Shown here: positions 1 to 12,884 of the stretch, piece after piece
Position numbering within the stretch: the first letter of the stretch is position 1
Layout of the letters: the number at the start of each line of letters is the position of its first letter
Source: Bacteroidota bacterium
GTDB lineage: Bacteria > Bacteroidota > Bacteroidia > Bacteroidales > Prolixibacteraceae
Reading direction: 5' to 3'
Assembly (NCBI GenBank): GCA_030691295.1
Contig: JAUYEQ010000357.1
Location: forward strand, 1 to 12,884
Length of the DNA: 12,884 bases
Notes under the pieces: model-generated
What the model was told of the DNA's origin: nothing
The model's input: the letters and a program-made list of their open reading frames with translations, nothing else
Databases searched by the model: none
Translations under genes and position numbers: made by a program

Positions 1-1
1 G

Positions 2-496
2 GAAATGATTTCGATGCCGCAATTGACTGACATTTCATACCGGCAAGCTACCAACCTGATAGAAAGCGCCGGCCTGATTGCCGGAATAGTTGAATACGAA
101 CCTTCCGAATTTCCAGATCTCGTTCTGGAGCAAAAAGTAAACGGAAGAATTGTCAGGGAAGGCGAAAGGATTCCAAAAGGATCAATCGTCGATTTGGTTC
201 TGGGAAGTGAAGGCAATGCTACAAGCAGCAAAGTTCCGACATTGTTTGGGAATAACCTGGAAGAAGCCCGGCTGAAAATTCAGGAAGCATACCTGAATTT
301 AGGAACCGTTAATTACGATGAATCGTTTTCTTCGGAAGAAGAAAAACTCAAAGGCCAGATTTGGAAACAGAGTCCCGATCCCGCTGAAATATTTGAAATA
401 GCCAGAGGAGCAACCATTGATATTTGGCTAACCATTGACCCCACAAAACTTGAGGCAAAACCCGAAACGGAAGAACCCGATAATTCATTTTTTTAG
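2..496 (+). CDS. PASTA-domain protein, 3' part (5' end outside window)
   Basis: The frame is open from the first bases of the window, so the gene begins upstream; the ATG at 5 is probably internal. Numbered from that ATG, 163 residues are visible. They contain two PASTA-like repeats: residues about 3-68 (starting MPQLTDIS and ending VDLVLG) and about 76-145 (starting KVPTLFGNNLEEA and ending IDIWLTID). Each has the usual opening P-x-L/hydrophobic-x-G/D, a helix, and a late 'G' before the last strand. A short acidic tail rich in Glu and Pro follows. PASTA domains bind peptidoglycan or muropeptides in other bacteria. Bacteroidota relatives usually have one N-terminal membrane anchor and no kinase domain; the anchor would lie outside this window. 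The stop codon directly abuts the rluD start, suggesting co-transcription and translational coupling. Placement beside rluD and ddl fits an envelope role, but the exact function is unknown. Confidence 0.82.
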   Translation, partial: EMISMPQLTDISYRQATNLIESAGLIAGIVEYEPSEFPDLVLEQKVNGRIVREGERIPKGSIVDLVLGSEGNATSSKVPTLFGNNLEEARLKIQEAYLNLGTVNYDESFSSEEEKLKGQIWKQSPDPAEIFEIARGATIDIWLTIDPTKLEAKPETEEPDNSFF

Positions 497-1570
497 ATGA
501 TTGAAGAAACAGATTTTATTGACGATTTTGAAGATATTGAGGACATTGAAGAGACCGATGACGGCGCGCTGTTCGAGCATTATAATATAATTGTAGATCC
601 CGGTCAGACATTACTGCGCATCGACCGGTTTTTGTCGAACCGGTTGCAGAATGCCACCCGAAGCCGGTTGCAGGCCGCTGCCGATGAGGGGAAAATTCTG
701 GTCAACACGGTGCCGGTCAAATCGAGTTACAAGGTAAAACCCGGCGATGAAATTTCCATCGTGATGGACTATCCGCGGCGCGAACTCAAGATTATTCCTG
801 AGGACATGCCATTGAATATTGTTTATGAAGACGACCATCTGCTGGTTGTCAATAAACCGGCAGGATTGGTGGTTCACCCCGGACATGGGAATTATTCCGG
901 AACACTGGTCAATGCGCTGGCTTACCATTTTCAGGAATTACCACTTTTCCACTCAGACGATCCACGCCCGGGACTTATTCACCGGATTGACAAAAACACA
1001 TCTGGATTACTTGTGATTGCAAAAACTGTGGAAGCCAAAGTGAAGCTTTCGCTGCAATTTTTCGAAAAAACTACCAAGAGGAGATACGTTGCGCTTGTTT
1101 GGGGCGATCTTGCTGAAAATGAAGGAACCATTACCGGAAATATTGGCCGAAGCTTAAAAAACAGGCAGGTTTTTACCGTTTTTCCTGAAGCCGAACATGG
1201 GAAACCTGCAGTAACCCATTACAAAGTAATCGAGCGACTGGGATACGTAAATCTGGTGGAATGCCGCCTCGAAACAGGACGCACGCATCAGATCAGAGTG
1301 CACATGAAACACATCGGACACCCATTGTTTAACGACGACAATTACGGCGGCGACCAGGTTCTGAGAGGAACCACTTTTACAAAATACAAACAGTTCGTCA
1401 AAAATTGTTTTGAAATGATTCCACGTCAGGCGCTTCATGCACAAATGCTGGGTTTTGTGCATCCGGCAACCGGCGAAGAAATGGTTTTCGAATCAGAACT
1501 TCCTGAAGATTTGGCCAACGTAATTGTAAAATGGCGGAATTATTTATCGAATAGGGTAACTTCGGAATAA
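497..1570 (+). CDS. rluD: RluD-type 23S rRNA pseudouridine synthase (RluA family)
   Basis: A 357-residue protein converting uridine to pseudouridine in structured RNA. E. coli RluD modifies helix 69 of 23S rRNA; the target here is inferred by family. It starts with an acidic leader (residues 1-28, many Asp/Glu), as is common in Bacteroidota members. An S4 RNA-binding domain follows (about 38-93, with RIDRFLSNRL and the KVKPGD turn), then the catalytic domain. Motif II is GLIHRIDKNTSGLLV (159-173), with D165 the predicted catalytic aspartate. Motif III is LETGRTHQIRVH (258-269), and RQALHA follows at 310-315. Length is near the family norm. The ATG at 497 begins on the base after the upstream TAG, leaving no room for an independent ribosome site. 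RluD and RluA/RluC paralogues are hard to separate by eye; the S4 domain and gene context favour RluD. Confidence 0.93.
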   Translation: MIEETDFIDDFEDIEDIEETDDGALFEHYNIIVDPGQTLLRIDRFLSNRLQNATRSRLQAAADEGKILVNTVPVKSSYKVKPGDEISIVMDYPRRELKIIPEDMPLNIVYEDDHLLVVNKPAGLVVHPGHGNYSGTLVNALAYHFQELPLFHSDDPRPGLIHRIDKNTSGLLVIAKTVEAKVKLSLQFFEKTTKRRYVALVWGDLAENEGTITGNIGRSLKNRQVFTVFPEAEHGKPAVTHYKVIERLGYVNLVECRLETGRTHQIRVHMKHIGHPLFNDDNYGGDQVLRGTTFTKYKQFVKNCFEMIPRQALHAQMLGFVHPATGEEMVFESELPEDLANVIVKWRNYLSNRVTSE

Positions 1571-1576
1571 AAAAAC

Positions 1577-1633
1577 CACATAGACACATAGAACACATAG
1601 AGAAAAAATTTAAAAAAACTATGTGACCTATGT
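1577..1633 (+). repeat. CACATAG / CTATGTG inverted-repeat element
   Basis: Three close direct copies of CACATAG occur at 1577-1583, 1585-1591 and 1594-1600. An A-rich stretch follows, then the inverse CTATGTG at 1619-1625 and a partial CTATGT at 1628-1633. One strand can form a 7-bp stem from 1594-1600 with 1619-1625. It begins 6 bases after the rluD stop. Similar CACATAG-rich palindromes are recalled from many Bacteroidota intergenic regions. It may stabilise the rluD 3' end, but it has no typical terminator T-tract. Confidence 0.6.
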
Positions 1634-1671
1634 ACCTAAGTAATAGGAACTATATATTGTCGTATATTTTT

Positions 1672-1758
1672 CCAACTCACCCCACGTCCGCTTGCGGACG
1701 TTCCCCTCTCTTTTAAAAAGAGAGGGGAAAGCATCGCAGATGCGAGGGGGTGAGTTGG
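1672..1758 (+). repeat. Cloverleaf-forming palindromic repeat element
   Basis: A perfect 12-bp outer stem, CCAACTCACCCC (1672-1683) with GGGGTGAGTTGG (1747-1758), encloses three independent hairpins. The first pairs ACGTCCGC (1684-1691) with GCGGACGT (1694-1701). The second pairs CCCCTCTC (1703-1710) with GAGAGGGG (1720-1727), extended by T/A pairs inside. The third pairs GCATC (1731-1735) with GATGC (1739-1743). The whole unit is therefore a four-way junction. Similar units recur in Bacteroidota genomes from memory, and this looks like a non-coding, MITE/REP-like dispersed repeat. It is not a tRNA: no acceptor CCA, T-loop consensus or anticodon arm is recognisable. Confidence 0.75.
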
Positions 1759-1830
1759 GATAAAAAACAAAAAATAAAATGCGACATTATTTCATTCTCA
1801 TTACTTATGTGGTTCATAAAATACATACAT

Positions 1831-2808
1831 ATGAAAAAAAATATTGCTGTTATATATGGTGGCGACTCCTCCGAATTTGTAGTTTCGGTAAAAAGCAGTA
1901 AAAATGTATTCGGATCAATTGATCCGGCCATCTACAATGTTTGGAAAGTACAGATGAAAGGATTGGATTGGGAGGTTCTTGAAGATGACCAGGTGATCGC
2001 ATCCATCGATAAAAACGACTTTTCATTCAGCAAAAACGGAAAAAAAATACAATTCGATTTTGCATACATCACCATTCACGGCACCCCCGGCGAAGATGGC
2101 AAACTTCAGGGATATTTCGACATGGTTAAAATCCCCTACTCTACATGCGGTGTATATTCTTCGGCGCTTACTTTCAACAAGTATTTCTGCAGCAATTACC
2201 TTCGCAATTTCAAGGTTCCGATGGCAAAATCGGTTCGCTTGTTTAAAGGCGATCAGGTTGATGCCGATCACTTGGTTGGCGAACTCGGATTGCCAATGTT
2301 TGTGAAACCCAATGCAGGTGGTTCAAGTTTCGGCGTAACCAAGGTGAAAGAAAAAGAACAACTTTTGGCTGCGCTCGAGATGGCGATGAAAGAAAGCCAC
2401 GACATTCTGGTTGAGCAGTTCATAGATGGTCCGGAGTTTACCTGCGGATTGGTAAAACTTTCGGATCAGGAACTGATTTTTCCGGTTACTGAAGTCATTC
2501 CACAAAACGAATTTTTCGATTTCGATGCCAAATATACCGCAGGCAAAACCGATGAAATTACACCGGCCCGCATCTCTGCAGAACTGACACAAAAGATACA
2601 GCAACTCTCATCACGCATTTACGATTTGTGCGATTGCTCCGGAATTGTGCGAATGGACTACATACTGAAAGACAATGAATTCTATTTTCTGGAAGTAAAT
2701 ACAACACCCGGCATGACCGCCACCAGCTTTGTCCCGCAGCAAATTGCCGCGATGGATCGAAAATTAGGGGATGTATTGGGATTGATTATTGAAGATAAAC
2801 TGAAGTAA
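1831..2808 (+). CDS. ddl: D-alanine--D-alanine ligase
   Basis: A 325-residue ATP-grasp ligase joining two D-alanines with ATP in the cytoplasm to make the terminal dipeptide of the peptidoglycan precursor. E15 lies after YGGDSS. HGTPGEDGKLQG is at 83-94, and the ATP-binding KPNAGGSSFGV follows at 159-169. The metal-ligand set corresponding to E. coli DdlB D257, E270 and N272 appears as D276 (RMDY), E288 and N290 (FLEVNTTPGMT). The KYTAG segment at 234-238 keeps the Tyr typical of D-Ala-D-Ala rather than D-Ala-D-lactate enzymes. The ATG at 1831 was chosen because the protein begins with the canonical strand MKKNIAVIYGG. The frame is open back to a GTG at 1750, but that GTG lies inside the cloverleaf repeat and would add 27 residues unlike the family. 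An intrinsic terminator follows the stop. Confidence 0.95.
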   Translation: MKKNIAVIYGGDSSEFVVSVKSSKNVFGSIDPAIYNVWKVQMKGLDWEVLEDDQVIASIDKNDFSFSKNGKKIQFDFAYITIHGTPGEDGKLQGYFDMVKIPYSTCGVYSSALTFNKYFCSNYLRNFKVPMAKSVRLFKGDQVDADHLVGELGLPMFVKPNAGGSSFGVTKVKEKEQLLAALEMAMKESHDILVEQFIDGPEFTCGLVKLSDQELIFPVTEVIPQNEFFDFDAKYTAGKTDEITPARISAELTQKIQQLSSRIYDLCDCSGIVRMDYILKDNEFYFLEVNTTPGMTATSFVPQQIAAMDRKLGDVLGLIIEDKLK

Positions 2809-2833
2809 TTTTGTCGACAACTTAATATCTCGT

Positions 2834-2858
2834 GGAGGCCAAACGGTCTCCTTTTTTT
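2834..2858 (+). terminator. Intrinsic terminator after ddl
   Basis: GGAGGCC (2834-2840) pairs with GGTCTCC (2845-2851) across an AAAC loop, with one G-T wobble. Seven T residues follow (2852-2858). It sits 25 bases after the ddl stop and separates ddl from dnaB. Confidence 0.85.
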
Positions 2859-2859
2859 C

Positions 2860-2867
2860 TAACTTTG
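2860..2867 (+). promoter_or_regulatory. Candidate -7 element of the dnaB promoter
   Basis: TAACTTTG matches the Bacteroidota -7 consensus TAnnTTTG exactly. It lies just after the ddl terminator and about 65 bases before the dnaB ATG, a sensible leader length. No TTTG-like -33 element is visible at the usual distance, where the terminator stem lies, so support is partial. Confidence 0.45.
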
Positions 2868-2871
2868 AAAC

Positions 2872-2896
2872 CCTGCAAAAAATTTTAAAGTGCAGG
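2872..2896 (+). promoter_or_regulatory. Hairpin in the dnaB leader
   Basis: CCTGCA (2872-2877) pairs perfectly with TGCAGG (2891-2896) around a 13-base A/T-rich loop. It would fall at the start of the leader RNA made from the candidate promoter. It could be an mRNA-stabilising stem or a protein site; nothing shows which. Confidence 0.35.
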
Positions 2897-2931
2897 AAAC
2901 CCAAATATCTTATTGATTGAATTCCAAAAAC

Positions 2932-4503
2932 ATGGCCGGAGAAAGAAAAAATTACCAGCAAACAAATAAAATGACCATTGAGCAAGTCAACGCTCAATAC
3001 GGAAAAATCCCGCCTCAGGCCATTGAAGTAGAGGAAGCTGTTCTGGGCGCACTGATGCTCGAACGCGATGCCTACATTACTGTTGCCGACATCATCGACA
3101 CCAAAAGTTTTTACAAGGAAGAACATCAGAAGATTTTTGAAGTGATCAAATACTTGTCAACCCACGAAAAACCGGTTGACTTGCTGATGGTTACCCAAGA
3201 ACTGAAAAACCGTGAAAAGCTGGAAGAAGTGGGAGGTCCGTTGATGATCACCCAGTTGACCTCGAAAGTAGCTTCGGCAGCGCACATCGAGTTCCATTCG
3301 CGCATCATTGCACAAAAATTCATGCAGCGCGAAATGATCCGCGTTTCAACAGAAATTCAAACCAAAGCATACGACGACACCATTGATGTGGACGATTTGA
3401 TTGATTTTTCGGAGACAGCGCTTTTTCAGGTTGCGGAAGGAAATATCAAGAAAGAATCGATGCCCATCAAACCACTTTTACGCGAGGCAGCGCTTCTGAT
3501 CGAAGAGGCTTCGAAACGTGAAGACGGCCTGAGCGGGGTTCCCAGCGGATTTACCGCAATGGACCGCATTACTTCAGGATGGCAAAAGACCGACCTGATC
3601 ATTATTGCCGCCCGTCCTTCGATGGGAAAAACAGCTTTTGTTTTATCGATGGCGCGCAACATGGCCGTCGAACACAAGGTTCCGGTCGCTGTTTTTTCTC
3701 TTGAAATGTCCTCCATTCAGTTGGTTAACCGTTTGATTTCATCCGAAACTGAAATCGGTGGCGAGAAAATAAAAAACGGACGATTGCAGGGTTGGGAATG
3801 GGACCATTTCCACCGCAAACTGGCGGTTTTGGACGATGCCCCACTTTTTATCGACGATACTCCGGCCTTGTCAATTTTCGAATTCAGGGCCAAATGCCGC
3901 CGCCTGAAAATGCAGCACAACATTGGCGCTGTGATTGTCGATTACCTTCAGCTGATGACTGCCGGTACCGACAACAAAGGTAGCCGCGAACAGGAAGTAA
4001 GTATGATTTCGCGATCGTCGAAAGCCATTGGAAAGGAATTGAACATTCCTGTCATCGCACTTTCTCAGCTGAACCGTTCGGTCGAATCACGCGAAGGAAA
4101 ACGACCTCAGCTTTCCGACCTTCGCGAATCTGGCGCCATCGAGCAGGATGCCGACATCTTTTTGTTTATTCACCGCCCTTAATACTACGGAATTTACGAA
4201 GACGAAAACATCAATTCGCTCATCGGTGTGGCCGAAATTATCATTGCTAAACACAGAAACGGCGCGGTGGGCGATGTCAGACTGTCCTTCAAGAAAAACC
4301 TGGCCAAATTCTCCGACATGGAAAATATTATTCCTGAAGAAATTGGCGGCGGACAATACGGACAGAAAATGCAGTCAAAAATGAATGATGATTCCGGAGA
4401 CTCCTACCGTAGTAAATCAGGGGCGATACCGGTCAATGCATCGTTTGAAGATGAAAAATTTAGTCATTACGGAAATTCTGGAAGCAATGATGTACCATTT
4501 TAA
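2932..4503 (+). CDS. dnaB: Replicative DNA helicase DnaB, interrupted by an in-frame TAA
   Basis: This is the hexameric helicase that unwinds DNA ahead of the replication fork and recruits primase. The N-terminal domain (about 26-130, starting PPQAIEVEEAVLGALML) and linker are followed by the RecA-like domain. Walker A is ARPSMGKTA (227-235), Walker B is AVIVDYLQLM (333-342), then SQLNRSVE (378-385) and LSDLRESGAIEQDAD (394-408). A TAA at 4180-4182 stops the frame after residue 416, at HRP where homologues continue HRPEYY. The same frame then continues without a shift through GVAEIIIAKHRNGAVGDVRL, which contains the predicted arginine finger R442, to a TAA at 4501-4503. Reading through gives 523 residues, a normal length for this phylum; the 416-residue product would lack the arginine finger. 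The ATG at 2932 was preferred to the TTG at 2917. The 3' end overlaps the next gene. Confidence 0.93.
4180..4182 (+). other. Premature in-frame TAA inside dnaB
   Basis: The codon after HRP is TAA, followed in frame by TAC TAC GGA. DnaB homologues have Glu here, so a single G-to-T change (GAA to TAA) explains it. No frameshift is present. TAA is used as the ordinary stop for rluD, ddl, fecR and susC in this window, so general reassignment of TAA is excluded. Sequencing or assembly error, a strain variant or a true nonsense mutation remain possible. Confidence 0.9.
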
Positions 4504-5764
4504 CAAATACTTCAGGTTGTTGTTCGTTGCAATGTTGGTTTTGATCATCCAAACAGCAAATGCAGCTTTTATTTTAATCCCGATGGATGAAAAACAAAGC
4601 AACCATTTAAAATCATACGGCATAACCTACTGGACGCTGGAACAAGGCATTGAAGTTAAATGGCTGCTCAATTACCGTGGCGGAAGTTTCCTGATTCAGC
4701 ATCAGCAGGCCATAGCCAGTGAGTGTTTGGTGCGGGGCGTAAGTTTCGAAACCCTTGCCGACGGACAGGCAAACAATTTACTGGCCGAAATTTCGCGCGA
4801 AGATGTCAATCAGGATGCAATAAGTATGCAGAAAGCGCCGAAGGTTGCTGTTTATTCACCACCCAACAAACAACCCTGGGACGATGCTGTAACGCTGGTT
4901 TTAACTTATGCTGAAATTAAATTCGATGTCATTTATGACGAAGAAATACTGAATGGCAAACTGAAAGAGTACGATTGGCTGCACCTTCACCACGAAGACT
5001 TTACCGGTCAGTTCGGGAAATTCTATCAGGCATACCAACATGTTCAGTGGTATCAGGAAGAAGTTCGGATTAATAAAGAACTTGCACAAAAGATGGGTTT
5101 CATGAAGGTTTCGGAAATGAAAAAGGTGATTACCCGCGATATCCGGCAGTTCATCGAAAACGGCGGTTTCCTTTTTGCCATGTGCGCCGCTACCGATACC
5201 TACGACATCACCCAATCTGCTCAAGGTATCGACATTTGCGAATCCATGTACGATGGCGATCCTGCAGATCCTCACATGAACGATCACCTTGATTTTGAAC
5301 ACACTTTAGCTTTTCACAATTTCAAAATCAATCGCAATCCGTATGAATATGAGTTCTCGGATATCGATGTTTCCACCAGCAGGAAAGTTCCCCGCGAACA
5401 GGATTATTTTACGCTGTTCCAGTTTTCAGCAAAATGGGATCCCGTGCCAACCATGTTGTGCCAGAACCATGTAAACATGATCAAAGGATTCATGGGACAA
5501 ACCACTGCTTTCGACAAAAACCTGGTAAAACCCAACGTTTTGATAATGGGTGAAAACAAGGCTGCCAACGAAGCACGATACCTGCACGGCGAGCAGGGCA
5601 AAGGGTTCTGGACTTTCTACGGTGGCCACGATCCTGAAGATTACCAACATTTTGTAGGCGACCCGGCTACCGACCTGAACTTACACCCGAACTCTCCCGG
5701 GTACCGTTTAATCCTGAACAACGTGCTGTTTCCGGCAGCCAAGAAAAAGAAACAGAAGACGTAA
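4490..5764 (+). CDS. Secreted Bacteroidota protein, amidotransferase/ThuA-like fold (often labelled 'asparagine synthetase B')
   Basis: A 424-residue exported protein. Residues 1-25 form a signal peptide: Lys/Arg after the start, the hydrophobic run LLFVAMLVLII, and predicted cleavage after QTANA. The mature part begins AFILIPMDEKQSNHLK and has conserved-looking blocks: YGITYWTLEQG (43-53), WLLNYRGGSF (58-67), VYSPPNKQPWDDAVTLVLTY (121-140), YDWLHLHHEDF (161-171), GGFLFAMCAATDTYDI (225-240) and FWTFYGGHDPEDYQH (373-387). I recall close relatives being labelled asparagine synthetase B. No N-terminal Cys glutaminase domain or SGGLDS-type ATP-pyrophosphatase loop is visible, and the protein is secreted, so that name is unsupported. 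The strand-rich HHEDF block, C232 in FAMCAATDT and late GGHD suggest a class-I-glutamine-amidotransferase or ThuA-like fold, which is inference. The start follows a tandem ATGATG (4487, 4490) and overlaps dnaB by 14-17 bases. Function is unknown. Confidence 0.8.
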   Translation: MYHFNKYFRLLFVAMLVLIIQTANAAFILIPMDEKQSNHLKSYGITYWTLEQGIEVKWLLNYRGGSFLIQHQQAIASECLVRGVSFETLADGQANNLLAEISREDVNQDAISMQKAPKVAVYSPPNKQPWDDAVTLVLTYAEIKFDVIYDEEILNGKLKEYDWLHLHHEDFTGQFGKFYQAYQHVQWYQEEVRINKELAQKMGFMKVSEMKKVITRDIRQFIENGGFLFAMCAATDTYDITQSAQGIDICESMYDGDPADPHMNDHLDFEHTLAFHNFKINRNPYEYEFSDIDVSTSRKVPREQDYFTLFQFSAKWDPVPTMLCQNHVNMIKGFMGQTTAFDKNLVKPNVLIMGENKAANEARYLHGEQGKGFWTFYGGHDPEDYQHFVGDPATDLNLHPNSPGYRLILNNVLFPAAKKKKQKT

Positions 5765-5826
5765 ACAGTGGGCAGTCGCAATGTTCAGTAATCAGAAAGA
5801 GGTTCAGATTTTATGATCGCGCACGA

Positions 5827-5949
5827 GACTCTGAAAGAGTCAAATATAAATAACCCCGGGTGAAGTGAAACGGACCCCGGGGAGAAGGCTAACAAGTATC
5901 ACAAGGCGCATCCAACCTTCTAATTTGAAACGAAAAAGTTGTATGCGCC
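5827..5949 (+). repeat. Array of three hairpins, REP-like element
   Basis: Hairpin 1 pairs GACTCT (5827-5832) with AGAGTC (5836-5841) around GAA. Hairpin 2 pairs CCCCGGG (5854-5860) with CCCGGGG (5876-5882) around a 15-base loop. Hairpin 3 pairs GGCGCAT-c-CAAC (5905-5916) with GTTG-t-ATGCGCC (5938-5949), 11 pairs with one mismatch. The layout of a small CTGAAAG hairpin, an A/T spacer and then a CCCCGGG hairpin resembles dispersed REP-type repeats recalled from other Bacteroidota. A small structured RNA is an alternative, but nothing here shows transcription. Confidence 0.6.
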
Positions 5950-6166
5950 GCAAATTGAAAACACACATTCGAAGATTTTGCCAGCCGCAAGTAGCCAGCC
6001 GCCAGTTGTCCATTGGTCAGTCGCAGGAAGCAGGTGAAGGTGGGAAGATGGAAGGTGAGAGCGTATGAAAGGGCAGTTTTGTCTCAAACAATTTACCCAT
6101 TAAGTCATATTTGCATTGAATTGATTTTCCTCTTTTAACCATAAAAACAATATAACCATCCAACTA

Positions 6167-6199
6167 TTTGATGGGCTCGTCCAAACTTTACTACTTTTA
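6167..6199 (+). promoter_or_regulatory. Weak candidate promoter for the ECF sigma gene
   Basis: TTTG at 6167-6170 and TACTTTTA at 6192-6199 resemble the Bacteroidota -33 (TTTG) and -7 (TAnnTTTG) elements. The spacer is 21 bases and the last G of the -7 element is replaced by A. This would give a leader of about 25 bases before the ATG at 6231. Such matches are frequent by chance in A/T-rich DNA. Confidence 0.3.
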
Positions 6200-6230
6200 T
6201 ACCGAAAAATTTCTGATTTAGATTTTATTG

Positions 6231-6815
6231 ATGGCTGAAATTGGCAATGATCACAATCTGGTTCAGTTGCTTCAAAAGGGAAATGTTGCTGCATTTGATT
6301 CACTTTTTGAAGGTTACAGCCAAAAGCTTTTCGGTTTTGCCCTTAAATATTTCAAAAACGAAAGTGATGCGGAAGAACTTGTTCAGGAGGTTTTTGTGAA
6401 AGTATGGGAAAACCGGCAAATGCTAAAATCAGAACTTTCTTTCAAATCTTACCTTTTCACCATTGCCCTGAACCAGATCAGAAAACACTTCAATAAAAAA
6501 GCGACTTCACTACGCTACCTCGAAAGTCTTCAAAATGAACCTGAATTTTCGGAAAACCATACAATTCATGAAGACGACTACGAATCAGCCCTTCAGCAGA
6601 TCAACCTCATCATCGAACAAATGCCTCCCCGCCGCCGGGAAATATTCACCAAAAGCAAGCTGGAAGGTAAAAGCTCAAAAGAGATTGCCTCAGAACTGAA
6701 CATTTCAGCCGGAACCGTTGACAATCAGGTTTCAGAAGCCCTCCGGTTTATCCGCTCACGGTTAAGTACTGAAAATTTTGGGCTATTGCTTTTTGCCGTT
6801 TTGTATATCTACTAG
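6231..6815 (+). CDS. ECF RNA polymerase sigma factor, FecI-like
   Basis: A 194-residue sigma-70 family member of the extracytoplasmic-function group that directs RNA polymerase to a small set of promoters, probably susCD downstream. Region sigma-2 spans about 22-88, including the region-2 signature DAEELVQEVFVKVWENR at 46-62. Region sigma-4 spans about 122-177, where PPRRREIF and the helix-turn-helix GKSSKEIASELNISAGTVDN recognise the -35-like element. There is no region 1 or 3, as expected for ECF factors. The chain ends with an unusual hydrophobic tail, FGLLLFAVLYIY. The ATG at 6231 was chosen over a TTG three bases earlier. A FecR-type anti-sigma gene follows after a 269-base spacer containing a palindromic repeat. 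The gene matches the large Bacteroidota sigma family paired with FecR and SusCD. Confidence 0.93.
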   Translation: MAEIGNDHNLVQLLQKGNVAAFDSLFEGYSQKLFGFALKYFKNESDAEELVQEVFVKVWENRQMLKSELSFKSYLFTIALNQIRKHFNKKATSLRYLESLQNEPEFSENHTIHEDDYESALQQINLIIEQMPPRRREIFTKSKLEGKSSKEIASELNISAGTVDNQVSEALRFIRSRLSTENFGLLLFAVLYIY

Positions 6816-6820
6816 TTAAC

Positions 6821-6954
6821 AATGAAGATCGGAGCATCATTGCGACCACGAGGCACGAAGTGGGAAGCAATCTCACCCCCAATAATAAAAAAGATTGCTT
6901 CAGTCCGTTTCCGTTGTACTCCAACTCCTTCGCAATGACCCTCCGATTAACATT
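6821..6954. repeat. Nested palindromic repeat between the sigma and anti-sigma genes
   Basis: Two long arms pair across about 120 bases. ATCGGAG-ca-TCATTGCGA (6828-6845) matches TCGCAATGA-cc-CTCCGAT (6930-6947), 16 pairs with a 2-base internal mismatch. Inside, GAAGCAATCT (6864-6873) pairs perfectly with AGATTGCTTC (6892-6901). A short outer AATG/CATT pair may extend it (6821-6824 with 6951-6954). The TCATTGCGA...GAAGCAATCT...AGATTGCTTC...TCGCAATGA layout matches a dispersed intergenic repeat recalled from many Bacteroidota. It has no coding capacity. Confidence 0.75.
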
Positions 6955-7084
6955 TTATATGCATACCGAAAAAATTTAAAAATTCACCCATGAGAAATTC
7001 CACCTCATCGGATATAAGTTTAAAGCAGCCAAAAATACGGAGCTTTAATTTCTGAATAAAAAAAGAAATGTGCAACTTGAGGCA

Positions 7085-8134
7085 ATGAAGGAACAGCTAA
7101 AACATATCATCCAGAAATATTCAGCAGGGAAACTTACCCTGAAGGAACAGATTGAACTTTCGGATCAACTGGCTGATCCGCATAACAGGGATGCAGAAGA
7201 AATACTGCACGACGACTGGAAATTACAACCCGAATCAAATTTAATTTCGGAGCGCGATTTAAAACCTATTCTTGACAAGGTCCACCACCACATCCGCCTG
7301 AATGAAGAAAATAAAGTCGTCCGTCTCAACTTCATGCAGCATTTTCAGCGCATTGCGGCCATTCTGATTTTCCCTTTGTTACTTACATTTCTGGCGTATT
7401 TCTATTTTCAGGACAAACCAACTGCAACTACAACTTCTTTTGCCGAAATTGAATGCCCGATGGGAGTGCGCACCAAATTTCAACTTCCTGATGGTTCGAC
7501 CGGTTACCTTAACAGCGGATCACGATTAAAATATCCGGTTCAGTTTATCGGCGAACGAAAAGTGGAACTGGTTGGCGAAGCCTTTTTTGATGTGGTTCAC
7601 AATGCCGAAATTCCTTTTCATGTAAACACCCGTAACCTGGACATCAAAGTGCTGGGAACCACCTTTAACGTGATTGCCAACGAAGACGAACAAACAGAAG
7701 AAATCGTTTTGCAAACCGGGAGTGTCGATGTTTCCTCCCGAAACGGGAAACAACTGGCCGTTCTGTCGCCCAACGAACAACTGACCCTTGATATTGAAAT
7801 GCGGACTTTTGCAAAAAAAGGAGTTGAGGCTTCTCAGTACACCACATGGAAAGAAGGCAAACTGGTATTCCGTAACGAAAACATGCAGCAGGTGGCCCGC
7901 CGGATAAGCCGCTGGTACAATGCGGAAGTGGTGGTTGACGACAGATTGCTCGATGACTATACTTTTCACGCAACGTTTATCGATGAGCCATTGGATGAAG
8001 TGCTGAAATTACTTTCGATTACTACCCCAATAAGTTACAAAGAGGAAAAAAGGGAAACGAACAAGGATGGAGTTTTTCAGAAACGTAAAATAACCCTCCG
8101 AATTAACCAATCAAAAATCAATCAGTTCAGATAA
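7085..8134 (+). CDS. FecR-type anti-sigma factor with DUF4974
   Basis: A 349-residue inner-membrane regulator. The cytoplasmic N-terminus (1-89) carries the sequence expected to hold the ECF sigma factor. A single transmembrane helix lies at about 90-108 (IAAILIFPLLLTFLAYFYF). The periplasmic FecR domain spans about 122-216, with CPMGVRTKFQLPDGS, ELVGEAFFDVVHN and VLGTTFNVIA. A C-terminal DUF4974 region (about 257-322: LVFRNENMQQVARRISRWYN and DEPLDEVLKLLS) is the part expected to meet the STN domain of the partner transporter. The frame is open to a GTG at 7070; the ATG at 7085 gives the more typical N-terminus MKEQLKHIIQKY. Gene order (sigma, fecR, susC with STN) fits a cell-surface signalling set. 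In such systems the anti-sigma factor may also be needed for sigma activity; that is family knowledge. Confidence 0.93.
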   Translation: MKEQLKHIIQKYSAGKLTLKEQIELSDQLADPHNRDAEEILHDDWKLQPESNLISERDLKPILDKVHHHIRLNEENKVVRLNFMQHFQRIAAILIFPLLLTFLAYFYFQDKPTATTTSFAEIECPMGVRTKFQLPDGSTGYLNSGSRLKYPVQFIGERKVELVGEAFFDVVHNAEIPFHVNTRNLDIKVLGTTFNVIANEDEQTEEIVLQTGSVDVSSRNGKQLAVLSPNEQLTLDIEMRTFAKKGVEASQYTTWKEGKLVFRNENMQQVARRISRWYNAEVVVDDRLLDDYTFHATFIDEPLDEVLKLLSITTPISYKEEKRETNKDGVFQKRKITLRINQSKINQFR

Positions 8135-8143
8135 ATAAAAAAA

Positions 8144-8172
8144 ACAGGAAAGTGTTCGTACCACTCTCCTGT
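8144..8172 (+). promoter_or_regulatory. Hairpin between fecR and susC
   Basis: ACAGGAAAGTG (8144-8154) pairs with CACTCTCCTGT (8162-8172), 10 of 11 positions, around a 7-base loop. No T-tract follows on the + strand; the A-run just upstream would be a T-tract for minus-strand transcription. It may lower read-through from fecR into susC or protect RNA ends. Confidence 0.5.
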
Positions 8173-8229
8173 CAAAATCAAGTAGTACAATGTTCAATTA
8201 ATTATTTAACCACTTAATGTTTCAAATTT

Positions 8230-11200
8230 ATGAAAAAAAAACGAATCCGGGTACCCGTGCCTAACAGGGTACTCCTTAATCTTTGGAAAATTATGCGCTT
8301 AAGTGTATTTTTTTTACTGCTGTTTGTTGCACAAACATTTGCAACAGTAACCTACTCCCAGCAAACACGCCTGACATTAAAGATGCAGGGCGCCAAAATC
8401 ATTGATGTTCTGGGTAAAATTGAAGACGAAAGCCGATTTTACTTTCTCTTTAATCAAAAACTTGTTGACGTTGAACGAAGGGTGGATGTTGATGTTGAAA
8501 ATGAAAGCGTTGAGAAAATTCTTAACGGCATTTTCGGAAATACCAATGTTAGTTATGTGGTGAAAGACCGACAAATAGTTTTAACCACGGCCGATTTAAA
8601 TTTTGTATCCATTCAACAGCAACAAAAATCTGTTTCCGGAAAAGTGACTGATTCTTCCGGAACTTCCTTCCCCGGCGTTTCTGTAGTGGTAAAAGGAACT
8701 ACAATAGGGAACATAACAGATGAAAACGGGAATTATGTAATATCGAATGTTCCGGCCAATTCTACCCTGGTATTTTCATTTGTAGGAATGAAAACACAGG
8801 AAGTTTCTGTCGGAAATAAAACCACGGTCAATGCAGTAATGGAAGAAGAAACCTTAGGCATAGAAGAAGTGGTGGCCATAGGGTATGGATCGGTTCAAAA
8901 AAAGGACCTCACCAGTGCCGTTACGAGTATGGCTAGTAAAGACCTTTTGCAAGGAGCATTTAACAGTCCTCTGCAAATGCTTGACGGTAAGGTTGCGGGC
9001 GTTTCGATCTCCAATCCGGCGGCTGCCGACCCTAACCGCTCTACCGACATCCAGGTACGTGGAGCTTCCTCAATTTCTGCAGGAAATGGCCCCTTGATTA
9101 TTATCGATGGCATGCCCGGGGCTGATCTGCGCAATGTGGCACAACAGGATATCGAATCCATGACTGTTTTAAAAGATGGTGCAGCTGCTGCAATTTACGG
9201 CTCGCGTGCCGCCAATGGAGTTATCCTGGTGCAGACAAAAAGGGGTAAATCCGGCAAAGTGGTAATTACCTATGACAGTTATATCGACCGTGATGTCGTT
9301 TCCGCCAAACCAGATATCCTCTCACCTGAGGAATTCCTCTCACATGAGATTGATGTTGACCGTGGTGGTCGTACCAATTGGTATGATGAACTGATCAGAA
9401 AAAATAATTTAGGTCAAAACCACTTCCTTTCAGCTTCAGGGGGAAATGAAAACACCATTTTCCGTATTTCTGCCAATTTCCGTGACAAGACTGCTATCGA
9501 TATCGCATCTGAACGTCAGGAAACGGGTATCCGTGCAAGTTTCCAGCAAAAAGCAATGGATGGATTTTTAGAGTTAAGCGGTAATTTATCGTACAAAGAT
9601 GCTGCTGAAGAATATACCAACTACGGTATATTTCAACAGGCTGTAAAACTGAATCCAACAATCCCGGTTATGGATCCGCAAGACCCCTCAGGTTACTACC
9701 GGATGTATGGGTATGATACCTTCAACCCTGTTCAGGAATTGAACGAACGTGAAAATGGCGCAGATCAGATGTATTCAATCGTTGACTTCACAGTTAAATT
9801 GAACTTGCTTCGGAATCTGAACACTGAGATAAAACTCGCCCGTCAAGACCGTGATATGTTTAAAAGAGAATACTATACATCAAAAGCCAAAGAATCAGTC
9901 GACAACAAACGTACCGGCCGTGCACGTTTGCAAGAAGAAAAATGGACGGATTACACCCTGGAATGGATCGGAAATTATTATGCAAATATAGGTCGGAACA
10001 ATATTAAATTGATGGGGGGTTATTCCTACCAGGAATTTAACAATCATGGATTCTGGGCTGAGAACATGGATTTTCCATCTGACGCCTTTTCATACAACAA
10101 TCTGGATGCAGGGAAATGGCAGCTGGAGAAAGGTCGCTTAGGAATGGACTCATGGAGAAGCAAAGAAAAGACCATCGCATTCTTTGGCCGTGCCAATTAC
10201 AATTACGATGACAAGTTTCTTCTTACCGGATCAATGAGATATGAGGGGAATACCAAATTTGGAGCGGATAATAAATGGGGAATGTTCCCTTCGGCTTCGG
10301 CTGCATGGCGTTTGTCTGAAATGTCGTTTATGGAAGATGTTTCATTCGTCGATGATTTGAAATTACGTGTATCTTATGGTGAAACCGGACGATCAGGATT
10401 TGGACGTTACTCTTCACTGTCTCGTTATCAAGGATTTGGTAGATGGCAGAATGATGAAGGACAGTGGATCCAGGTTTATGGGCCAGCCAATAACCCTAAC
10501 CCTGATTTGCGTTGGGAAAAACAGATTTCTTACAACTTAGGTCTTGACTTCGCTTTATTTAACAATCGTTTGTCGGGAAGCGCAGATGCCTTTATCCGTC
10601 AGGGTAAAGATGTGATTTCAAATTATGATGCTTCACTTCCACCTTTCTTACATGATCAAATTTTTACAAACGTGGGATCAACTACCGCAAAAGGTGTTGA
10701 ATTGAATCTGAATTGGACGGCTATACAAAAAAATGATTTCGTCTACAGAACCAATATCACCGCATCTTACATCTTATCCAAATTGGATAAATTCTCCAAC
10801 GGAACCTTCACAAAAGGGTTTATGGATCGCTACTCCCTGCCTTCACCGGGAAACCCTGGCTTTGCGCAACGTTTGGAAGATGATACTGAAATCGGTAGCT
10901 TCTACGGATATAAATATGCCGGTGTAAATGAAGAAGGCAAAATTATGATCTGGCGTGATGGTGTTGTGGACGGTGAAAAAGTAATTGCCACAGGTGGAGG
11001 TAAAGATACCGACAAAACCTATTTGGGTCATGGTGCCCCTCGAATGGAACTGACATGGGGAAATAACTTCACCTACAAAAGCTTTGACCTTTCCTTGTAT
11101 TTCCGCGGACGGTTCGATTATCAAATCCTGAATACGTATCAAATGTACTACGGATTGGTGGCTGAACCTGGAGTCAACCTGTTGACAGATGCTTATACAA

Positions 11201-11487
11201 AAAACGGACACATCACATCGGGAAAAGTGATTACTGATTATTTCCTTGAAGATGGCGATTACCTTAAACTTGACAATTTAACCCTGGGTTGGTCTCCAAA
11301 AATTAACAGCAAGTATTTTAGTAACTTCCGACTTTATGGTACGGTGAAGAATGTTTTCACGCTCACAAAATTCACCGGACTGGATCCAACAACTGTTAAC
11401 ACATCAGGATTAGAGCCAGGTATTGTAGACTTGAATGTATATCCAATTACCCGAAATTACACACTCGGAGTTCAGGTAACATTCTAA
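8230..11487 (+). CDS. SusC/RagA-like TonB-dependent outer-membrane transporter with STN domain
   Basis: A 1085-residue outer-membrane importer that, with SusD, takes up a large substrate (usually an oligosaccharide) using TonB energy. A long signal region (1 to about 43, hydrophobic SVFFLLLFVAQTFA) is followed by an STN signalling domain (about 46-121: RLTLKMQGAKIIDVLGKIE and VDVDVENESVEKILNGIF). A carboxypeptidase-regulatory-like beta domain follows (about 134-206: VSGKVTDSSGTSFPGVSVVV). Next come the TonB-box region IEEVVAIGYG (211-220), the plug (about 226-340) with SusC hallmark VLKDGAAAAIYGSRAANGV (313-331), and a large beta-barrel ending in VQVTF. The STN domain is found in transporters that signal to a FecR protein, matching the two genes upstream. 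The TonB box and final Phe are intact. A SusD-like gene follows after 33 bases, so they form one transcript. The substrate cannot be read from the sequence. Confidence 0.96.
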   Translation: MKKKRIRVPVPNRVLLNLWKIMRLSVFFLLLFVAQTFATVTYSQQTRLTLKMQGAKIIDVLGKIEDESRFYFLFNQKLVDVERRVDVDVENESVEKILNGIFGNTNVSYVVKDRQIVLTTADLNFVSIQQQQKSVSGKVTDSSGTSFPGVSVVVKGTTIGNITDENGNYVISNVPANSTLVFSFVGMKTQEVSVGNKTTVNAVMEEETLGIEEVVAIGYGSVQKKDLTSAVTSMASKDLLQGAFNSPLQMLDGKVAGVSISNPAAADPNRSTDIQVRGASSISAGNGPLIIIDGMPGADLRNVAQQDIESMTVLKDGAAAAIYGSRAANGVILVQTKRGKSGKVVITYDSYIDRDVVSAKPDILSPEEFLSHEIDVDRGGRTNWYDELIRKNNLGQNHFLSASGGNENTIFRISANFRDKTAIDIASERQETGIRASFQQKAMDGFLELSGNLSYKDAAEEYTNYGIFQQAVKLNPTIPVMDPQDPSGYYRMYGYDTFNPVQELNERENGADQMYSIVDFTVKLNLLRNLNTEIKLARQDRDMFKREYYTSKAKESVDNKRTGRARLQEEKWTDYTLEWIGNYYANIGRNNIKLMGGYSYQEFNNHGFWAENMDFPSDAFSYNNLDAGKWQLEKGRLGMDSWRSKEKTIAFFGRANYNYDDKFLLTGSMRYEGNTKFGADNKWGMFPSASAAWRLSEMSFMEDVSFVDDLKLRVSYGETGRSGFGRYSSLSRYQGFGRWQNDEGQWIQVYGPANNPNPDLRWEKQISYNLGLDFALFNNRLSGSADAFIRQGKDVISNYDASLPPFLHDQIFTNVGSTTAKGVELNLNWTAIQKNDFVYRTNITASYILSKLDKFSNGTFTKGFMDRYSLPSPGNPGFAQRLEDDTEIGSFYGYKYAGVNEEGKIMIWRDGVVDGEKVIATGGGKDTDKTYLGHGAPRMELTWGNNFTYKSFDLSLYFRGRFDYQILNTYQMYYGLVAEPGVNLLTDAYTKNGHITSGKVITDYFLEDGDYLKLDNLTLGWSPKINSKYFSNFRLYGTVKNVFTLTKFTGLDPTTVNTSGLEPGIVDLNVYPITRNYTLGVQVTF

Positions 11488-11520
11488 TTTCAATTCACCC
11501 ATAACTAACAAATAAAGAAT

Positions 11521-12884
11521 ATGAATAAAATTAAAATATTTTACCTTTTGCTGATTTTCGCATTGGTAATCCCTTCATGTACCAATTTGGATGAAGAAGT
11601 TTTTGACACCCTTACAACTGATATTTATTATCAGGATAAGAACTCAATTATCGCAGCTTTGGTGCGTCCTTATGAACACGCCCACTGGTGTGGTTGGGAC
11701 GGTGACCGATGGATATTGCAGGAATTAACTGCTGACCAGTTTATGTGGGCTCAGAAAGGAAAGCACGGCTGGGACGGTGGTCAATGGATCCGCCTTCATG
11801 CCCATGAATGGACTGATAACGAAGGAGTAGTTTATGGTGCCTGGGTAGGCCCCTACCAGGGAATTGCCCAATGTAATCAGTTCATCAGCGATTTTACAGG
11901 TTTGGATTACCTGAAATTTGGATTGACTGAAGCCGACAAAGCACAGCATATCGCTGAATTGAGAACCTTGCGCGCCTGGTTTTATTTATTCCTGATCGAT
12001 TTTTTCCGTGAAGTTCCGATTGTGACCAATGTCTCAGAAGTAAAAGGACAGTCAACACGTGAGGAAGTATTCGAGTTTATCGAAACTGAACTGAAAGAGT
12101 CTTTGCCAGGTTTGTTGAAAAACGGACGTGCCGGTCGCTGGGATCAAGGTGGTGCAGCTGCCTTATTGGTTCGGTTGTACCTGAATGCCGAAGCATGGAC
12201 TGGAACTCCTAAATACACTGAATGTGCGAAGTATGCCCAAGAAGTGATCGATGGAAATTACGGAACCTACAACATTGATCCTGATTATACAGGTCCTTTC
12301 CGCTCCGGAATCAATGGATATCGTTCTAAGGAAAATATCCTTGAATTCCCTCATGCAAAAAACATCTATGAATTTGGATGGATGTACAATGCGATGATGC
12401 ACTATCAGCAACGTTATTCCTTGGATAATGACTGGGGTGGCTGGAATGGAATTACCCTGACCCCTTCGCGCGATTTGGAAGGAAACTTAAATCCATACAA
12501 ACTTGGGAATCCCTACGAAAAATATGCCGCCGCTGACAAGCGTAAACAACCTTTCCGAACGATCGATGCCAATGGCAACCGTGAAGGATTTTTCCTCATT
12601 GGCCAGCAGTATTATTTCAATGCTGCCAAAGGTTTTGGTTTCGATAGCACCAAGATGGTGCTGGGTACTGAGGAATGGACTGGAAAGCCGCTTTCGTTTG
12701 TAGACCAGGCTGGAAGGTTCTCTGAAAAACCAAACGGACGTTGGGCCGAAGGTTCACATGTAAGTACAGGCGAGGAAAACACAGGAGTACGTTTTCTTAA
12801 ATTCCCTTGGTTGCCCCTGTCTCAAAATTTGTTCCAGTTCAATTCCGCCACCGAAATCCGTTTGGCTGAAATGTACTATGCGCT
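11521..12884 (+). CDS. SusD/RagB-like surface lipoprotein, 3' end outside window
   Basis: The frame is open from the ATG at 11521 to the window end (454 codons), so the C-terminus is missing. The N-terminus is a lipoprotein signal: MNKIKIFYLLLIFALVIPSC with C20 as the lipidated Cys. Acidic residues (TNLDEE) follow, as for lipoproteins sent to the surface in this phylum. SusD-family hallmarks are LRTLRAWFYLFLIDFFREVP (the tetratricopeptide-like helix), a GAAALLVRLYLNAEAW segment, and EIRLAEMYYA at the window end. The first 120 residues are rich in Trp and Tyr, which could form ligand contacts, though this is inference. It lies 33 bases after susC and should cap the SusC barrel and capture its substrate outside the cell. 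This gene is easily missed because it has no stop in the window. Confidence 0.94.
   Translation, partial: MNKIKIFYLLLIFALVIPSCTNLDEEVFDTLTTDIYYQDKNSIIAALVRPYEHAHWCGWDGDRWILQELTADQFMWAQKGKHGWDGGQWIRLHAHEWTDNEGVVYGAWVGPYQGIAQCNQFISDFTGLDYLKFGLTEADKAQHIAELRTLRAWFYLFLIDFFREVPIVTNVSEVKGQSTREEVFEFIETELKESLPGLLKNGRAGRWDQGGAAALLVRLYLNAEAWTGTPKYTECAKYAQEVIDGNYGTYNIDPDYTGPFRSGINGYRSKENILEFPHAKNIYEFGWMYNAMMHYQQRYSLDNDWGGWNGITLTPSRDLEGNLNPYKLGNPYEKYAAADKRKQPFRTIDANGNREGFFLIGQQYYFNAAKGFGFDSTKMVLGTEEWTGKPLSFVDQAGRFSEKPNGRWAEGSHVSTGEENTGVRFLKFPWLPLSQNLFQFNSATEIRLAEMYYA

Follow-up and report, generated by a model that had tools for sequence, protein, structure and literature searches.

We found that the gene for the replicative helicase DnaB in a draft Bacteroidota genome is interrupted by an in-frame TAA, and comparison with related sequences indicates that this stop is very probably an artefact of the draft assembly. 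The artefact is strongly favoured, short of proof, because the stop adjoins other changes private to this genome and because close relatives have intact genes. The stop thus most likely sits in the deposited file and not in the organism, which makes the finding an ordinary one.

The window, by which we mean the whole stretch of DNA analysed (12,884 nucleotides), makes up one entire contig (C693). The draft genome to which it belongs comprises 4.44 Mb in 721 contigs, with 93.11% completeness and 2.45% contamination. This is a draft assembly with features of a metagenome bin. The closest named relatives by DnaB, among the 29 loci returned, were metagenome-assembled genomes labelled Bacteroidota or Prolixibacteraceae. 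The gene and its parts are as follows:

2932 to 4503, forward strand: dnaB frame, 523 residues with one stop (Pfam, alignment to 2r6a).
2932 to 4182, forward strand: first piece, 416 residues and the stop, with the DnaB N-terminal domain and most of DnaB_C (PF00772, PF03796 profile 1-214).
4018 to 4020, forward strand: codon 363, whose residue is private against 12 genomes and against 29 loci.
4159 to 4211, forward strand: five private transversions, all protein-changing, in codons 410, 417, 422 and 427 (comparison with relatives).
4180 to 4182, forward strand: in-frame TAA, codon 417, not in any of 29 aligned relative loci.
4183 to 4503, forward strand: second piece, the rest of DnaB_C, KHRNG and the C-terminal tail (PF03796 profile 224-255, 2r6a alignment).

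Translation from ATG 2932 yields 416 residues before the TAA at 4180-4182, and the next TAA, at 4501-4503, brings the total to 523 residues, in agreement with an earlier note on this DNA. That note had also described normal DnaB before and after the stop with no shift, and we found the same: residues 202-416 match positions 1-214 of the Pfam DnaB_C profile and the sequence beyond the stop matches positions 224-255. Both PF00772 (the DnaB N-terminal domain) and PF03796 (DnaB_C) are found in frame, with DnaB_C interrupted by the stop beyond position 214 of 255 in its profile. As in the DnaB family at large, the KHRNG motif would bear the arginine finger. The motif lies after the stop, where it faces KQRNG of the solved DnaB 2r6a in the alignment, and truncation would remove it as the note had proposed. 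An arginine-finger residue is named for H. pylori DnaB in PMC8421360.

Sixty-one genomes were searched, the source genome included, and 60 of them gave some DnaB_C match, several of which were weak or partial; G002 gave weak matches only, and G042 and G045 gave pieces only. Near-full matches with an E value of 2.7e-98 or better were obtained in 50 other genomes and none of the 50 contained a stop. Among the DnaB_C matches listed for the 61 genomes, a stop was present solely in that of the source genome. The gene DNA itself was matched in 22 of the 23 genomes of the genus, source included. The nearest by identity over the gene were G007 (95%), G009 (95%) and G011 (94%), and in all three the dnaB frame is open throughout. 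An artefact should be missing from close relatives, and this interruption is.

One genome of the same family, G023, is 99% complete in about 40 contigs, and its only DnaB is a divergent one (L127, G023:C3:4621-5787), with 34% identity to the first piece in the window across residues 19-416. In G023 the usual dnaB either lies in a gap or has been replaced.

We then compared residues in a DnaB alignment with 12 of the 21 other matching genus members. Exactly five residues had no counterpart in these 12 genomes, at 363, 410, 417 (the stop), 422 and 427, and the last four fall inside 18 codons (410-427). When the comparison was widened to 29 loci from 25 distinct genomes, columns 363, 410 and 417 were each invariant in the relatives and residue 427 was again private. 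Residue 422, as it stands in the source genome, also appears in one or more of these 29 loci and is thus not private there. The earlier note had missed these changes at conserved positions right beside the stop.

At the DNA level, dnaB has 41 sites at which the source genome differs from G007, G009 and G013 alike. All five private base changes in the 53 bases of 4159-4211 alter the protein, whereas only 3 of 36 elsewhere do so (against G007 and G009). This excess of protein-changing differences gives a Fisher p of 7.5e-5 for a patch that was picked after the fact. Transversions were likewise concentrated there (5 of 5, versus 11 of 33 elsewhere, p = 0.0087). By these comparisons dnaB is under strong constraint overall, and the 4159-4211 patch disregards that constraint, as wrong bases would.

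A short run of wrong bases accounts for the stop and the adjoining private residues together, which leads us to read the stop as an artefact. In 4159-4211 several bases of the assembled sequence would be wrong and one of them would have created the stop; poor reads, thin coverage or a chimeric patch may be their origin. The change at codon 363 is possibly part of the same fault. The organism's own dnaB at this locus would then most likely be ordinary and intact.

A truly split gene would leave these flanking changes unexplained. Under that explanation two proteins would jointly form the helicase, the second from an internal start such as GTG 4228, and the open frame from this GTG does retain KHRNG. 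However, a protein begun there would lack the residues encoded from the stop up to 4228, and none of the 50 near-full matches in related genomes is split. We consider a split gene extremely improbable. The suggestion in the earlier note that the two halves might work together found no backing either, since no near-full match in relatives is split and further implausible changes surround the stop.

Several observations count against an artefact. Across 52.6 kb compared with G009, containing 42 frames, the cluster of amino-acid changes in dnaB ranks 9th by count (p 0.008), and three of the 42 frames have a cluster p below 1e-4. Therefore the clustering by count alone is unexceptional. Several of the stronger clusters, not all, lie right at the beginning of their stop-to-stop frames, possibly ahead of the true start of the gene. 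Residue 422 recurs in the wider loci, as described above, and private residues at otherwise constant columns are found in other genomes of the genus as well. The source genome has 4 of these; G007, G009, G011, G012 and G021 have none; four other genomes have 1 or 2; G003 and G008, which are more distant, have five each; and G005, the least similar genome aligned, has 42. Finally, no other clear break was found elsewhere in the sample scanned.

That sample is relevant to the error rate of the assembly. The 42-frame comparison ran from stop to stop, so that other stops of the source genome were invisible to it. A coding-score scan covered 20 contig stretches and the window, 256.5 kb of the 4.44 Mb, on contigs that were non-random, being hits of the dnaB and tRNA searches. 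It returned six candidate stops including the dnaB TAA. Of the other five, three have the identical stop codon in G009 and one has a different stop codon there; the fifth has an ATG seven codons downstream, the G009 comparison covering the remaining four. Thus the 256.5 kb scanned showed no second gene with a clear internal break, so errors are not general in this genome and the fault would be local.

Since the interruption could also be genuine, we considered a real and recent mutation, with the sequenced cells or a minority strain carrying a broken dnaB and an intact copy residing in other strains or in sequence that the assembly lacks. In a genome that is 93% complete and in 721 contigs a second copy could be missed, and the remainder of dnaB looks constrained, as expected if the break were very recent. 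However, a second dnaB, which the earlier note had raised and proposed to look for, was not found in this 93%-complete assembly by family, by gene DNA or by the 131 bases around the stop. A profile search of the genome with PF03796 gave one near-full match, the dnaB at 2932, and one short, weak match on C181 (E 7.3e-5). Many relatives have weak matches like that on C181, in frames of about 460 residues; the C181 match is probably RadA. Decay would moreover scatter changes along the gene, and the protein changes here crowd one patch. The locus is also the native one. Taken together, we regard a recent mutation as unlikely, and as the main competitor of an assembly error.

We call the locus native because the surroundings in G009 match on both sides. 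One contig of G009 aligns with the window in pieces from 1 to 8888, and the surroundings of dnaB are common to both on either side. The alignment with a short contig of G007 runs from 2788 to 5795. G011, of which 20 kb were examined, aligns with the window only over 2809 to 6219; its similarity starts at 2809, just upstream of dnaB, and the upstream neighbours are unaligned within the 20 kb. The segment 1642-1805, between the genes for a pseudouridine synthase and a D-Ala-D-Ala ligase, is unaligned with G009 though its flanks align. A frame at 4493-5764, which slightly overlaps the 3' end of dnaB, has no Pfam family and is well kept relative to G009, with 72 synonymous against 9 non-synonymous differences across 424 codons. 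Farther downstream, 6231-12882 holds consecutive genes for an ECF sigma factor, FecR, a TonB-dependent receptor and a SusD-like protein. Nutrient-uptake loci of Bacteroidota are usually laid out in such a row.

We also asked if the stop could be read through, by a suppressor tRNA or a local signal, to give full-length DnaB. The DnaB frame is open and recognisable on either side of the stop, as this would need. The tRNA search, whose first look scored 150 of 281 candidates, gave 35 matches, 34 of them above the cut-off. No stop anticodon was present among the 34 tRNA genes read by ARAGORN at the places examined in this incomplete genome, so that the suppressor tRNA suggested in the earlier note did not appear. 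The stops of long coding-like frames in the 256.5 kb sample were 67 TAA, 24 TAG and 11 TGA. TAA is thus the commonest stop, which rules out its general recoding, as the note had already argued from TAA ending most genes. The aligned relatives have no stop at codon 417, and read-through would leave the other private residues unexplained. We therefore hold read-through to be very improbable.

As far as an incomplete genome can show, neither a spare copy nor recoding finds support. The earlier note had left four options standing. A base error is now the best supported, and a second dnaB, suppression of the stop and working halves gained no support. It is implausible that a living cell would have a truncated protein as its sole replicative helicase, with further changes at constant positions next to the break. 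We give next to no credence to the reading that the organism has no intact dnaB and depends on a replicative helicase, altered in residues near the break, that works as two parts or by read-through. Were such a split or recoded helicase real, it would be highly surprising, but the evidence points the other way. When a draft genome shows a single stop within an essential gene, the private changes next to it should be considered as well, against close relatives, before recoding or splitting is invoked.

No papers were retrieved by a literature search that combined assembly errors with premature stops in metagenome-assembled genomes. A comparable case is the deposited Mycobacterium smegmatis genome, in which, according to the abstract of that study, sequencing errors were behind a significant proportion of interrupted genes (PMC1852416). 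The likeness is that a gene is broken in a deposited sequence. The difference is that resequencing and proteomics were applied there, whereas the present case draws on the assembled sequence alone. With respect to the helicase itself, the frame resembles the DnaB replicative helicase (PF00772, PF03796; 2r6a) in having both domains, and residues 25 to 467 align with 2r6a across the position of the stop. It differs from DnaB in the stop at codon 417 and in four more residues that have no counterpart in the 12 genus members.
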